Shown piece after piece: positions 2,915-8,776 of a stretch of 36,916 nucleotides of DNA. Numbering within the stretch: position 1 is the stretch's first letter; the number at the start of each line of letters is the position of its first letter. This DNA comes from a virus, in IMG/VR virus record IMGVR_UViG_3300020371_000026, positions 1 through 36,916 of that record. The stretch is one strand, 5' to 3'. The translations under genes were made by a program, and so were the position numbers. The notes under the pieces were generated by a model. It ran no database searches, was not told where the DNA came from, and was given only the letters and a program-made list of their open reading frames with translations.

Positions 2915-5900
2915 TTATTCGGACCTGATTTGAACATCAAACTCAACACGCTTAATTCGATATTGAGCACCATTTGTTCCACTTAATTTTTCTCCTCCGA
3001 GAATCGCTTGAATTACAGCGCCATTACCAGTGGAATCACCAGGATCATTGTTAACAGTAACTGTGGGATGAATAGCGTATGCCTGATCAACAGATTGGAC
3101 ATATCCATATCCACCATTATTAACTGTTACTGATTCAATTTGGTCACCTGCAGTTGTCATTACAGCGGTAGCTGTTGCTTGGATATCACCTGCAGTTTCA
3201 ATAGCAATGGATGGAGTTGCAGAATAATCATTACCAGGGTTTTGGACAATGAAATCTTTAATTGTCCCTGTATCGGAGAACTTATTGAGAACGCCATTTA
3301 CACCAACATTGAGATTTCCTGTGTCATACGGAACAATATTACGAACAATCAACGCTCCGCTGGAAGGATTCCAACTAGTAACAGTCGCTCTAACCTGAGA
3401 AACATCACCAGTGACGGTTTCTTCTGGGAAATAATTCGCCTCATTACCATCAGCAAGATCAAGATAGATCGTCATAGATGCAGCGTGAGGAACACCCTCA
3501 TTCAAACCACCTGCTTCAAGAATAGTTGCATATTTAAATGGCAGAGAAGCATCTTTTACCTGATCTCCAATCGCAAATAGTGTGGTGTTTTGACCACCGA
3601 CAGTCTCTTCGATACCATACAAAGAATTGTAAATACCACCATCAAGACTGATTTGATTTGCAAAGTCAGTACCAGTATTTACCAAATCAGGAATTCCATC
3701 ACCTGCACCTTCAAGTTCATCATCATCTTCAAAGTCTCTATCTGGAAGAATACCAATAGGATCAGTCAATGTGACAATATTGGTTCCAACAACTTCTACA
3801 AGAACATGAGGATCAAATCCTGCTGCAGCGGAAGCAGCAACACCAGCATCAAACTGAACAACAGCATCTTCTGTAGAAGGAATGCCACCATCAATAAATG
3901 CTAATTCATCAACTTCAAAGGTAACGAGCAATGCTCTGGTTGCAGGATCCCAGTCATAAACCTTTGCAATTTTATTGTTCTGGTTTTCTACTCTACGGAG
4001 AACTCTATCACCTACATTGAACTGATAAAGTGAGTTTCCGTCACCATCAACTTGAGTTGCATCAATAATTACTCGCTGGTCATATTTAAAGTTTTTACCA
4101 CGAGTCAAGTTCTGGAATCTTTCTCTGGATTTTGAAGTATAAGAAAGAATTTCATTATTAAGAATTAGACTTCCAGATCCAGGATATGCATCAGTGTTAT
4201 CAACATAGATTTCTGTATCTGATGCAGAGACATCTTTCAGCAAACCAGTCAAATAATTTGGTGTTGAGTTATAGGACTGACGATTTTTAACAAATCTCTT
4301 GAGATTTGTTAGTTTTGTGAAAATAATATTTGGTGGATTTGTATATCCAGTTCCAGGATCAGTAATAGTGATCGCACTAATCTCACCCTGATCAATCTCC
4401 GCTACTGCTTTTGCACCAATACCACCGCCACCAGTAATAAGAATATATGGCGGTTCTTGATAATATTCACCAGTATCCACAATATTAATACCAGTAACTT
4501 TACCAGCAGTATTGATTTGCGCTCTACCGCGAGCACCTTGTCCACCTCCACCACCTTCAAAGATGAGAGTTGGAGGTGTAGCAAATTCTCTACCCTGATT
4601 TAACAGAGTCAAACCAGTAACTGTTTGAACAATGCTACTTCCAGTTGCACCAGTTCCTTCACCACCCAAGATTTTTGCAGCTGCAGGACCAAAATATCCA
4701 TCACCACTTCTGACCATCTTGACATATCCAACCGTTCCATTGGGATTCAAAACAACTTCGCCAGCAGCACCACGGGGGAAATCATCTGTCATCGGAGGAA
4801 TGACTTGCTGCTGACCAGGTGCTACGGGATGATAAGGAACGCCATAAAACTCTGGACCGATTACATATGGATATACAGGATCATCATTGGTGTCCGTTGA
4901 CATGAAGTATGCATAAGTGCCACCAGGATATTCTGGAGTAACTGCAAATTTTCCATTAAAGCGGTCAAGTGTTCCTAATCCTTCTTCGTAGATATAATCT
5001 TCAATAAAATCACCTGCAAGATATCCATCTTGAACGCATCTGAAACCATATCCAATGAAACCATAAGAGATTACATAAAGAAGTCTAGGAGCGTTAACCC
5101 TTGGAGTAAACTCTAATCTCTTATTAGTAGCACCAGCAAAGTTTGTAATGTATCCAAGATAGGTTGTTTCTACATTATCAATAAAATACTGAATACCTAA
5201 TTGATACAGATATTGAGTGTTTCCAATCTGGGGAGGATCACCAACATGCCAACCATCTTCCTGTAAAGCAAAAAGAACAGGACTTGTTAATGTGTCTTGG
5301 TTGAATACATACTTCTTGCCTCTATCCAACTGCAAGAACGGAGGTGCCACTCCATCAATTAAGAATTTATCACCAGATACAGTGACATTATAATTTACAG
5401 TTCCTGTTGTAGTAATTCTAGGTCTATTACCATCAACTTCATTACCAGTTTTAGTTCTATAGGACGAAGTTTGTCGAACAACATCTCCAGCAGCATCATA
5501 TCCAAAAGGACCATAGATGGGATAACCATCATATGACATACCAAGAATCTTAGAGTGACCATCCAGATTACGACTAAAGTCATCAGCACCAACACCAGTG
5601 GTAATAGATTTAAATCCCCAGTGATCATAGATAGATCCACTAAGTCTTTCTTGATAAACTTTTATTTGCTGACCAGGTTTTCTGGCATCAGGTGGAATAT
5701 TTACAGTTACGGAATGTACAGTATTTGGAGCTGTATACTCTCCAATAATTCTTGGTCCATATACAGATCCAACAAATTCAATCAATAAATCTTCACCAGG
5801 GTCAACCTGTTCGCCACCATTGAAATCATCACCCCTAATAATTTTAACTTCGAGAGTGTTTTGACTAGTAAGATCTAATGTAAATCTAAGTTGCCTGTAA

Positions 5901-7549
5901 GAACCACCATTGAAAAGGAAGTGATCTCCAATATCAAATCCACCACTATCACCAGTTCCATCTCCGCTGGTAGTGATATGAGTTACATTAGAAAGGGTCA
6001 TTTGATATGCACCTTGTGCAATATCGTTCGCTGTTAACTCTTGTCTTCCCTTATAGTAGTTTTTAGTGTAATAATTATTTGTTAACTCTTCATCATCAAC
6101 TGTGGGATCAAGAATCATATATCCTTCATCACCAGTATATCCAGACATATACTGATGATATCCACAGTAATAGTAAATTCTATTAACCTCATCCCCATTC
6201 ATAATGAATGTAGGACGGAATTCATTCTCATAGTCAGCTGAGGGAGCAGCAGAAGCGCCTGTACTGTCGTAATAAATGGTTCCAGGGGTTTGGTTCAAAG
6301 GACCATCAGGAGTCGTGCTGAAGCGCATAGGATGCCCCTGAGGGTGCATCGATGATGGTTGGTTACTAGAATCGCTTTGATCCCAAATAATTTGATAGTT
6401 TCTCTGTACTCTAATATTGCGTGGAGCAAGATAATATACACCTGGTGTAAAATTACCAAACTCATGTGCTTCAGGACCAAATTCAATATAGAAGAGTCCG
6501 TTTGGAAACTCGATAGGGGTATTTGCAATGGTCATACTGAAACCAGTAGAACCAAGAATTCTATCGCCAGCTTCAAACTCACCTTCTACAGATCTCAGGT
6601 ACATTCTAAGAATGTTATTATTGTTATCTCTAATAATTTTAGAAATAACACCTCTAGCAAACTCATTACCAATTAATTCAACTAATCTACCCTCTTCTAC
6701 TGGATTGATAGTTTCATCAATATTACTAACATCAATTAAAATATTATCAGTTTCTGTCTTGACTCTCCATGTAAACTGTTGCAGATTGCCATTATCAAAT
6801 ACACTATTTTCCTGAGCAAACTGACCAATTAACTTATTAGTGTGATAATAATATTGATTGTTATTAGTAATACCATCATACTGATTGGTATTTAAAAGAT
6901 AATCATATCTTACAGTATCAATACTAAATCCTGCTGGTGCTGACCCAATTGCACCCCAATCTGGGGTATGAAGCAAAGATCCATTTGCAAAGATACCAGT
7001 TGGTTTATTTAATTCTTTAGGTCTATCTCCACCATAACGAGGCACATCCTTACCGCCACGATAGATGAAAAGTGAATTAAATGTCTGATCTACTAAAGAA
7101 CCGCCACCAGGAGTTCTAGAATTGGGATAATCTACAGGTTTGGGGTGGTTGTCGGAGGTGATAGTCAACCTATCAGTAAGATCTCCATCTACAATCGCAA
7201 AAGTACCTGTAGTTTGAGAATTTGGATTTGACTGCCAAATTCTATTGATATTAAACGACGATACAACAAACGGAGTATCCTGTTCTGGAACAATCGACAA
7301 TCTCAAAGGATCATATCCAGAACCAGATGACAGAACCCTAACATGAACAATTTGTCCAGAATCGTCATCAATAATCGGATATAACAACGCTTCGATATCT
7401 GGAATCCCGCATCCAGTTACAGTAAGTCTAGGGGGGTCAGAACTATCATAGTCTTGACCGCCATCTAAAACTTTAACTGCTCTTACGCCAAACTGGTCAT
7501 TAAAGATCGGCTCAATAACCGCACCAGATCCAGGAACTGTTCTTGCCAT
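2915..7549 (-). CDS. Large tail protein with cupredoxin-like and YHYH domains
   Basis: This 1544-aa protein is a modular structural protein. In order: (1) two GSGY-type repeats at about 20-100. (2) A cupredoxin-like domain at about 390-480 with His406 (in GHPMRF) and CGYHQYM, giving Cys462, His465 and Met468, the spacing of a type-1 copper loop. (3) A Reelin-like module at about 560-655, with IIRGDDFNGGEQ and later YDHWGFKSI. (4) A YHYH-type domain beginning near 660 (GHSKILGMSYDGYPIYGPFG) and ending near 905. It is interrupted at about 740-840 by a second cupredoxin-like segment (KKYVFNQD ... LLYVISYGFIGYG) that has lost the metal residues. (5) GSGY repeats at 930-1080 and 1433-1520. (6) A short module near 1106-1155 (EIYVDNTDAYPGSGSLILNN) that also occurs in the giant protein. 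The ATG lies 7 bases past the upstream stop with no clear Shine-Dalgarno. A role on the tail or baseplate surface is inferred. Confidence 0.85.
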   Translation of the reverse strand: MARTVPGSGAVIEPIFNDQFGVRAVKVLDGGQDYDSSDPPRLTVTGCGIPDIEALLYPIIDDDSGQIVHVRVLSSGSGYDPLRLSIVPEQDTPFVVSSFNINRIWQSNPNSQTTGTFAIVDGDLTDRLTITSDNHPKPVDYPNSRTPGGGSLVDQTFNSLFIYRGGKDVPRYGGDRPKELNKPTGIFANGSLLHTPDWGAIGSAPAGFSIDTVRYDYLLNTNQYDGITNNNQYYYHTNKLIGQFAQENSVFDNGNLQQFTWRVKTETDNILIDVSNIDETINPVEEGRLVELIGNEFARGVISKIIRDNNNNILRMYLRSVEGEFEAGDRILGSTGFSMTIANTPIEFPNGLFYIEFGPEAHEFGNFTPGVYYLAPRNIRVQRNYQIIWDQSDSSNQPSSMHPQGHPMRFSTTPDGPLNQTPGTIYYDSTGASAAPSADYENEFRPTFIMNGDEVNRIYYYCGYHQYMSGYTGDEGYMILDPTVDDEELTNNYYTKNYYKGRQELTANDIAQGAYQMTLSNVTHITTSGDGTGDSGGFDIGDHFLFNGGSYRQLRFTLDLTSQNTLEVKIIRGDDFNGGEQVDPGEDLLIEFVGSVYGPRIIGEYTAPNTVHSVTVNIPPDARKPGQQIKVYQERLSGSIYDHWGFKSITTGVGADDFSRNLDGHSKILGMSYDGYPIYGPFGYDAAGDVVRQTSSYRTKTGNEVDGNRPRITTTGTVNYNVTVSGDKFLIDGVAPPFLQLDRGKKYVFNQDTLTSPVLFALQEDGWHVGDPPQIGNTQYLYQLGIQYFIDNVETTYLGYITNFAGATNKRLEFTPRVNAPRLLYVISYGFIGYGFRCVQDGYLAGDFIEDYIYEEGLGTLDRFNGKFAVTPEYPGGTYAYFMSTDTNDDPVYPYVIGPEFYGVPYHPVAPGQQQVIPPMTDDFPRGAAGEVVLNPNGTVGYVKMVRSGDGYFGPAAAKILGGEGTGATGSSIVQTVTGLTLLNQGREFATPPTLIFEGGGGGQGARGRAQINTAGKVTGINIVDTGEYYQEPPYILITGGGGIGAKAVAEIDQGEISAITITDPGTGYTNPPNIIFTKLTNLKRFVKNRQSYNSTPNYLTGLLKDVSASDTEIYVDNTDAYPGSGSLILNNEILSYTSKSRERFQNLTRGKNFKYDQRVIIDATQVDGDGNSLYQFNVGDRVLRRVENQNNKIAKVYDWDPATRALLVTFEVDELAFIDGGIPSTEDAVVQFDAGVAASAAAGFDPHVLVEVVGTNIVTLTDPIGILPDRDFEDDDELEGAGDGIPDLVNTGTDFANQISLDGGIYNSLYGIEETVGGQNTTLFAIGDQVKDASLPFKYATILEAGGLNEGVPHAASMTIYLDLADGNEANYFPEETVTGDVSQVRATVTSWNPSSGALIVRNIVPYDTGNLNVGVNGVLNKFSDTGTIKDFIVQNPGNDYSATPSIAIETAGDIQATATAVMTTAGDQIESVTVNNGGYGYVQSVDQAYAIHPTVTVNNDPGDSTGNGAVIQAILGGEKLSGTNGAQYRIKRVEFDVQIRSE

Positions 7550-7555
7550 TTTTTA

Positions 7556-8776
7556 TTAACTTACAACTGTAATTGTGCCATTCATAAGATTGTGCAGAGT
7601 ACACTGATAGTACAGTGTGCTAGGAGCATCCATAGGTACTGTCCAGTATAAGACAGCATTTCCACTACCAGTCTGACCAGCAGTATAAGGAGTTCCCGTC
7701 AAACCAGAAGTAGATTGAATTCTAAATGGGTGTGCTCCGCCATTTACAGTATTGTCAAACGCATAAGTAAACCCTCTCATAACATACAGAGTCGGGTCAT
7801 TAGTCATTTGACTAAATCCAGGACCATTAAATGTGTAGTGCTGAATACCATCAGAATTAAGTTCCCACCAAATAATGGGACTGCGAGTTACAACCCAGTC
7901 AGAACCATTCCAATATAAAGAATCACCCTGAGTAATACCAGCAACATCTGTGTCAGTCAAAGCAGCAAGTGTACTGACCAGTGTTCCATCAAACGCAACT
8001 GTTAGCGTATCTCCAGTAATTGAGGTGGCAATGTTTGTGCCTCCAGAAATAGTAAGAGCATCAGTTTCACTAGATGCTGTTGTTGTGCCAGTATCAGCAT
8101 TTACAGTAGCAAAACTAGTGATACTAGATACACCAGCATTATCATCGCCAGGAACCCAATTAGTGCCATCCCATTTCAATACTTGGTTATTTGTGGGAGG
8201 AGTTGTTGTAACATCAATATCAGTGAGATCACCAACACTGGTATATTGAGTTAATAAACCAACCCTAGTATCACCAACACCACCTGCTGTGATATTCATG
8301 TTCACATAAGGAGTATCATCTCCGTCAACAGTAAAGAAATAACCAGGATAAGTAGCGGCAGTAGGAGCAGCAGCAGTATTTGCATACTCATTCTTATACT
8401 GAATTTTTGTGGGGAAATCAACAGTTCCAGTAGAACCATCAAAAATACTAGTAGTACCACCCGCAGAAAGACGAATGTCTCCCGTGCTGTTAGGAGCCAC
8501 ATTAATATCTCCAGCACCACTAGAGATAATGGAATATCCATTAACATCAAAATTAGATGTTAAAGCATTAAAATCACTAGCGATAAAATTAACACCAGTA
8601 AATTTTAATACTTGTCCAATTGCTGCATTAGCAACATTGATGTTGATATCAGCACCATTACCTAAAGTGGTATACAGTTCAGTAAAGTTGTCATTAATCT
8701 TTCCGCCGCCAGCACGGAGAGTATCCCCCGTGTTGTCATTGGCGGCAGCACCAAGATTTAGTGATTGTTTAGCCAT
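7556..8776 (-). CDS. Fibre-like tail protein with C-terminal cupredoxin-like domain
   Basis: 406 aa. The N-terminus (LGAAANDNTGDTLRAGGGKI then NDNFTELYTTLG) is a common opening of marine phage fibre-like structural proteins. The middle is low in charge, rich in Gly, Thr, Asn and Asp, and includes PTNNQVLKWDGTNWVPGD, a short repeat typical of fibre shafts. The last 100 residues look like a cupredoxin: WWELNSDGIQHYTF, then a strand with GGAHPFRI (His349), then LYYQCTLHNLMNGTI with Cys392, His395 and Met398. The loop CTLHNLM has the same spacing as the CTPHPFM copper loop of amicyanin. There is no signal peptide. A perfect TATAAATA motif 22 bases upstream points to late expression; the ribosome binding site is weak. 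Metal binding is untested. Confidence 0.85.
   Translation of the reverse strand: MAKQSLNLGAAANDNTGDTLRAGGGKINDNFTELYTTLGNGADININVANAAIGQVLKFTGVNFIASDFNALTSNFDVNGYSIISSGAGDINVAPNSTGDIRLSAGGTTSIFDGSTGTVDFPTKIQYKNEYANTAAAPTAATYPGYFFTVDGDDTPYVNMNITAGGVGDTRVGLLTQYTSVGDLTDIDVTTTPPTNNQVLKWDGTNWVPGDDNAGVSSITSFATVNADTGTTTASSETDALTISGGTNIATSITGDTLTVAFDGTLVSTLAALTDTDVAGITQGDSLYWNGSDWVVTRSPIIWWELNSDGIQHYTFNGPGFSQMTNDPTLYVMRGFTYAFDNTVNGGAHPFRIQSTSGLTGTPYTAGQTGSGNAVLYWTVPMDAPSTLYYQCTLHNLMNGTITVVS

Follow-up and report, generated by a model that had tools for sequence, protein, structure and literature searches.

The roles known for cupredoxins are those of free electron carrier and of enzyme domain. Amicyanin and plastocyanin (PF00127) are free periplasmic electron carriers, and rusticyanin and the Hyphomicrobium nitrite reductase are respiratory or redox proteins. 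In phages, metal in tail fibres is known as the iron of T4 gp37 and has been proposed for others, including alterophage R22Y, but these iron sites are His-x-His trimer sites without a cupredoxin fold (PMC11705849). A cryo-EM paper on podophage P-SCSP1u, in which the fibre N-terminus alone is resolved, does not mention metal. For the junction between baseplate and fibre the protein for comparison is T4 gp9, which forms a trimer at the baseplate periphery and bears the long fibre on its C-terminal domain (PMC3004832); six such trimers (18 copies) form the long-fibre sockets of T4. In the literature searched, outside which most subscription papers lie, no paper contained both 'cupredoxin' and 'tail fiber', and related searches yielded no relevant account of copper in the tails of cyanophages. 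A description of copper at a phage fibre joint is thus absent from the literature searched, which falls short of proof of novelty.

The window analysed here, IMG/VR record IMGVR_UViG_3300020371_000026, is a viral sequence of 36,916 nt from a marine T4-like cyanophage, and its minus strand carries baseplate genes like those of T4: gp25, gp6, a 7014-aa ORF, gp9, a 1544-aa protein and gp8. The 406-aa ORF that is the subject of this study matches PHROG 677 across residues 1–405 (E 1.2e-184) and the Pfam family T4_gp9_10_N with 34.3 bits, against a cut-off of 25, and its relatives in syn9, S-SSM5 and other cyanophages are annotated as gp9 or as 'baseplate wedge subunit and tail pin'. The gp9/gp10 N-terminal domain and the PHROG 677 match together place the ORF in the class of gp9 connectors, and phage databases label the protein as a fibre connector only. 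The N-terminal gp9/gp10 region and the annotated role are shared with T4 gp9; when the C-terminal domain was used as query, however, no Escherichia T4-like phage records were retrieved, versus 84 Escherichia records that match full-length gp9. An earlier, sequence-only reading had regarded the ORF as a phage fibre-like protein that, if copper is bound, would carry a redox metal at an exposed tip. The first description gives way to that of a gp9 baseplate-to-fibre connector, on the basis of PHROG 677, Pfam and the annotation of relatives, and the tip was dropped because the protein is a gp9 and T4 gp9 grips the fibre by its C-terminal end (PMC3004832). By analogy with T4, the cyanophage domain would sit instead at the fibre socket, the swivel joint between the baseplate and the long fibre. 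The features discussed below are listed in the table.

Table. Features of the gp9 connector gene and of the adjacent baseplate gene, with positions in the window and the evidence for each.
Feature	Position	Strand	Evidence
gp9-like baseplate wedge / long-tail-fibre connector, 406 aa	7556..8776	-	PHROG 677, Pfam T4_gp9_10_N, annotation of relatives
C-terminal cupredoxin domain (predicted fold), residues 299-406	7559..7882	-	AlphaFold2, VIA-align, profile matches
His349, predicted first copper ligand, HPF motif	7730-7732	-	conserved in 81/81; 2vmj alignment
Cys392, predicted thiolate copper ligand	7601-7603	-	motif, conservation, alignments
His395, predicted second His ligand	7592-7594	-	motif, conservation, alignments
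Met398, predicted axial ligand	7583-7585	-	motif, conservation, alignments
Baseplate wedge protein, 1544 aa, with YHYH domain and two cupredoxin-like domains	2915..7549	-	PHROG 708, Pfam, HMM
First cupredoxin-like domain of the 1544-aa protein, about residues 376-480	6110..6424	-	regular expression; iterated HMM, 87.6 bits
His406 of the 1544-aa protein, putative ligand	6332-6334	-	regular expression
Cys462 of the 1544-aa protein, putative ligand	6164-6166	-	regular expression
His465 of the 1544-aa protein, putative ligand	6155-6157	-	regular expression
Met468 of the 1544-aa protein, putative ligand	6146-6148	-	regular expression
Second, ligand-less cupredoxin-like domain of the 1544-aa protein, about residues 711-830	5060..5419	-	HMM, 49.7 bits

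Residues 299–406 were modelled by AlphaFold2 from an alignment of 18 rows, with a mean pLDDT of 96.2. In a model of full-length gp9 (pLDDT 68.8 and pTM 0.35 overall) the cupredoxin domain alone is confident throughout, with a pLDDT of 88–95 per block, and the low confidence elsewhere is probably due to a trimer having been folded as a monomer. The top PDB matches of the domain in a Foldseek search are rusticyanin, a three-domain nitrite reductase, a pseudoazurin with an amicyanin loop and amicyanin, and nearly all leading matches are cupredoxins. The best whole-domain matches are the N-terminal cupredoxin domain of the Hyphomicrobium nitrite reductase, which superimposes in VIA-align over 93 residues with a Z-score of 10.9 and a deviation of 2.2 Å, and rusticyanin, with a Z-score of 9.5. 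Both are about 20% identical to the cyanophage domain in sequence, and the ligand loops of rusticyanin are longer. The predicted structure of residues 299–406 is a cupredoxin fold, i.e. a Greek-key β-sandwich that matches solved cupredoxins, and the comparison with blue copper proteins that the sequence-only reading had proposed, made here with Foldseek and VIA-align, thus returned cupredoxins, amicyanin among them. The tail domain that it had delimited at 7556–7860 is real, but its true extent is slightly larger. In the predicted secondary structure Cys392 ends one strand, His395 and Met398 lie in the loop preceding the last strand, and His349 is found just ahead of another strand. The same placement of ligands relative to the strands is typical of the cupredoxin family.

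At the level of sequence the relationship emerges from profiles. Searched against the PDB, a profile of 20 diverged ligand-bearing phage copies (A2; an earlier profile, A1, was too narrow) matches copper nitrite reductase NirK (7e-7), amicyanin (1e-5), plastocyanin (3e-5) and rusticyanin (6e-4). Single phage copies match the amicyanin and halocyanin models weakly; for the window copy, single-sequence searches gave an E-value of 0.54 against the PDB and values of 0.013–0.095 against family models. Its score of 14.2 bits against the amicyanin model TIGR02657 is below the equivalog cut-off of 110.2 bits, and it also falls below the cut-off of the Copper-bind family PF00127, which a copy in a virion tail protein of P-SSM2 exceeds (23.3 versus 21.2 bits). 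The window copy is therefore assigned at the superfamily level only. Judged from the profile matches, residues 299–406 are homologous to blue copper proteins, so that the 'cupredoxin-like' label of the sequence-only reading is borne out both by the predicted fold and by profile matches that show homology to amicyanin, plastocyanin and rusticyanin. When profile A1 is aligned with 2vmj, which is a nitrite reductase with an engineered amicyanin loop (CTPHPFM, named in the PDB title), His349, Cys392, His395 and Met398 fall on its His, Cys, His and Met, the partner of His349 being the His of its PHN motif. The alignment with the amicyanin HMM shifts His349 by one column from the ligand His. With amicyanin and plastocyanin the domain thus has in common its homology by profile and the His...Cys-x2-His-x2-Met set, and with amicyanin the loop length as well, while it differs from both in its first ligand motif (HPF, where they have PHN) and in being part of a baseplate protein. 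By these sequence comparisons it is amicyanin-like in loop length, yet it is no amicyanin.

The translation of 7556–8776 has histidines at positions 313, 349 and 395 and a methionine at 398, and Cys392 is the sole cysteine of the protein. The residues His349, Cys392, His395 and Met398, the gap of 43 residues and the C-x2-H-x2-M loop with the length of that of amicyanin are all as first described. The residue pattern of a type-1 (blue) copper site, a His followed by Cys-x(n)-His-x(n)-Met, is therefore present at the homologous positions, and all four predicted ligands are invariant in the 81 gp9 relatives (81/81). An alignment of nine diverged copies contains 10 invariant columns, which include all four ligands (hypergeometric probability about 4e-5). 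In an alignment of the 20 diverged copies, with a mean column identity of 40%, four of the six invariant columns are the ligands, which is partly by construction, as these copies were chosen as ligand-bearing.

The set also behaves as a unit across a wider sample, which comprises 568 copies of the cupredoxin-like domain from phage proteins (including one host copy, L084), grouped into 49 clusters at 60% identity. The full set of His, Cys, His and Met is found in 29 clusters, and one has the first three without the Met; 15 clusters have none of the four, two have the Met only and two a lone His, one of the latter being a copy that is cut off. The two histidines and the cysteine thus occur jointly in 30 clusters and, save for the two with a lone His, are otherwise all absent. 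No cluster representative has two of these three main ligands; one copy within a full-set cluster, truncated in its contig, does. The 15 ligand-less clusters comprise the neighbouring baseplate protein's second domain, plus one other. In the RN05-S type (L170–L215) all 45 readable copies have Phe for the first His, Ala (once Ser) for Cys and Thr, Val or Ile for the second His, as would be expected if the three residues make one metal site; a related copy (L214), about 58% identical to the RN05-S-type domain, retains the full set. These complete losses would be what the loss of a metal site looks like in sequence, albeit in two or three evolutionary events only. Because some phage copies keep the cupredoxin fold without the ligands, metal is not needed for folding everywhere. 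The RN05-S-type domains form a natural ligand knock-out subfamily.

Two further copies of the domain are predicted in the 1544-aa baseplate wedge protein, whose gene begins six bases past the gp9 stop codon. Its first copy has a second full set of ligand residues (His406, Cys462, His465 and Met468) and belongs to a subfamily in whose main cluster 112 of 113 copies have the full ligand set; in the second copy the ligand positions are substituted across relatives. For the YHYH domain, which this protein contains as well, zinc binding has been predicted. The same fold occurs in the predicted structures of many cyanophage virion proteins. In P-SSM2 and Sf-CH8 a domain of the gp9 type lies near the N-terminus of a fibre-like protein, a placement that fits a module of the baseplate–fibre junction, and in S-CAM4 and S-H9-1 the domain forms the end of a subtilisin-like protease.

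Homologues are also present on the side of the host. The domain was found in 29 of 121 genomes of the genus to which a Prochlorococcus single-cell genome belongs, mostly in a small protein that starts with an apparent signal peptide, and in a few cases in large SWM-repeat proteins. The small cupredoxin (L360, L362, L364 and others) is about 130 aa long, occurs in about a fifth of the 121 genomes, exceeds the cut-off of the plastocyanin/azurin family PF00127 (30.3 versus 21.2 bits) and directly matches gp9 connectors (1e-5) and tail proteins of cyanophages. Its domain has His, Cys, His and Met, as in the phage, but it is a free small protein with the C-x2-H-x4-M spacing of plastocyanin, whereas the gp9 loop is C-x2-H-x2-M. 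It is probably secreted. Host cupredoxins and phage tails have likely exchanged this domain.

The explanation that we favour, and regard as reasonably probable, is that residues 299–406 of gp9 form a docking domain at the fibre socket, a cupredoxin that binds copper in an intact type-1-like site. Copper binding by the domain is likely, and because the fold and the full ligand set are kept in every close relative checked, copper is probably part of the virion at the fibre joint. The cupredoxin domain would stand where T4 gp9 has its fibre-holding C-terminal domain; a copper ion would clamp the loop beside the gp9 C-terminus, and the clamped loop would make the compact docking domain stiffer at the point where baseplate and long fibre swivel. 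We infer that the role of the copper is most likely structural or in docking rather than in electron transfer, a redox or host-recognition role being possible. Virions are assembled in the cytoplasm, in which little free copper is available, and this counts against copper. Cupredoxins can also bind other metals, and the identity of the metal is unreadable from sequence, so that the site might hold zinc or Cu(I) in a purely structural role, or the residues might be there for folding or for a buried contact, in which case there would be no type-1 copper centre. This is rather unlikely, since none of the four type-1 ligands has been lost, the axial Met among them, the ligand loop has kept its amicyanin length, and the closest relatives by fold and by sequence are blue copper proteins. 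That a generic β-sandwich in a fibre-related protein happens to have H, C, H and M would accord with the weak single-sequence E-values (0.54; 0.013–0.095), but it is highly improbable when set against the fold matches and the amicyanin profile E-value of 1e-5, and a chance motif was rejected on the invariance of the ligands in 81/81 relatives and their all-or-none loss across the phage clusters.

A different function would follow if the copper were redox-active or recognised by the host: the virion could then engage the envelope via electron transfer, copper scavenging or mimicry of a host cupredoxin, in a copper analogue of the Ferrojan or Trojan Horse idea for iron. In favour of such a function are the Prochlorococcus homologue with its apparent signal peptide and PF00127 score, the SWM-repeat proteins, the match of the host homologue to gp9 connectors of other cyanophages and the retention of a complete rather than a reduced ligand set; iron sites in phage tails are discussed in PMC11705849, as is the Trojan Horse hypothesis. 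It is nevertheless unlikely. By analogy with T4 the domain would lie at the socket, where the fibre covers part of it, and away from the receptor-binding end; no redox partner was found within the 36,916-nt window; and copies of the domain turn up in virion proteins of very different kinds, a pattern closer to that of a general building block.

If the copper site of the favoured docking domain is intact, widespread marine phages would have a cupredoxin as part of their tail apparatus. This would be a virion metal site that the literature searched leaves unmentioned, and it would tie phage particles to the copper chemistry of the ocean. Speculatively, and with a good deal of doubt, cyanophage virions might be blue-copper particles, with up to 18 type-1 sites at the fibre sockets by T4 stoichiometry and more in the neighbouring baseplate protein, in which the redox or occupancy state of the copper influences fibre movement, adsorption or the triggering of the baseplate.

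Several further loci deserve mention. Cyanophage subtilisin-like protease genes with a terminal cupredoxin domain and the full ligand set lie beside virion structural genes (L368:1788-3836 and L367:833-2839). In podophage P-SCSP2 (L366:2947-4260) a protein with fibre-like repeats opens with a full-set cupredoxin domain, so that the module is also found in podoviruses. Among the genome matches outside cyanobacteria, a contig of a Rhodopirellula MAG (L082, NZVD01000020.1) has phage baseplate genes in phage gene order and equals an IMG/VR viral contig in length (22,908 bp), so that it is probably phage DNA binned in the MAG. In the window itself, the 7014-aa ORF between gp6 and gp9 (8801-29845, minus strand) contains many GSGY...PP repeats, Lam-G-like stretches and YHYH-like segments.
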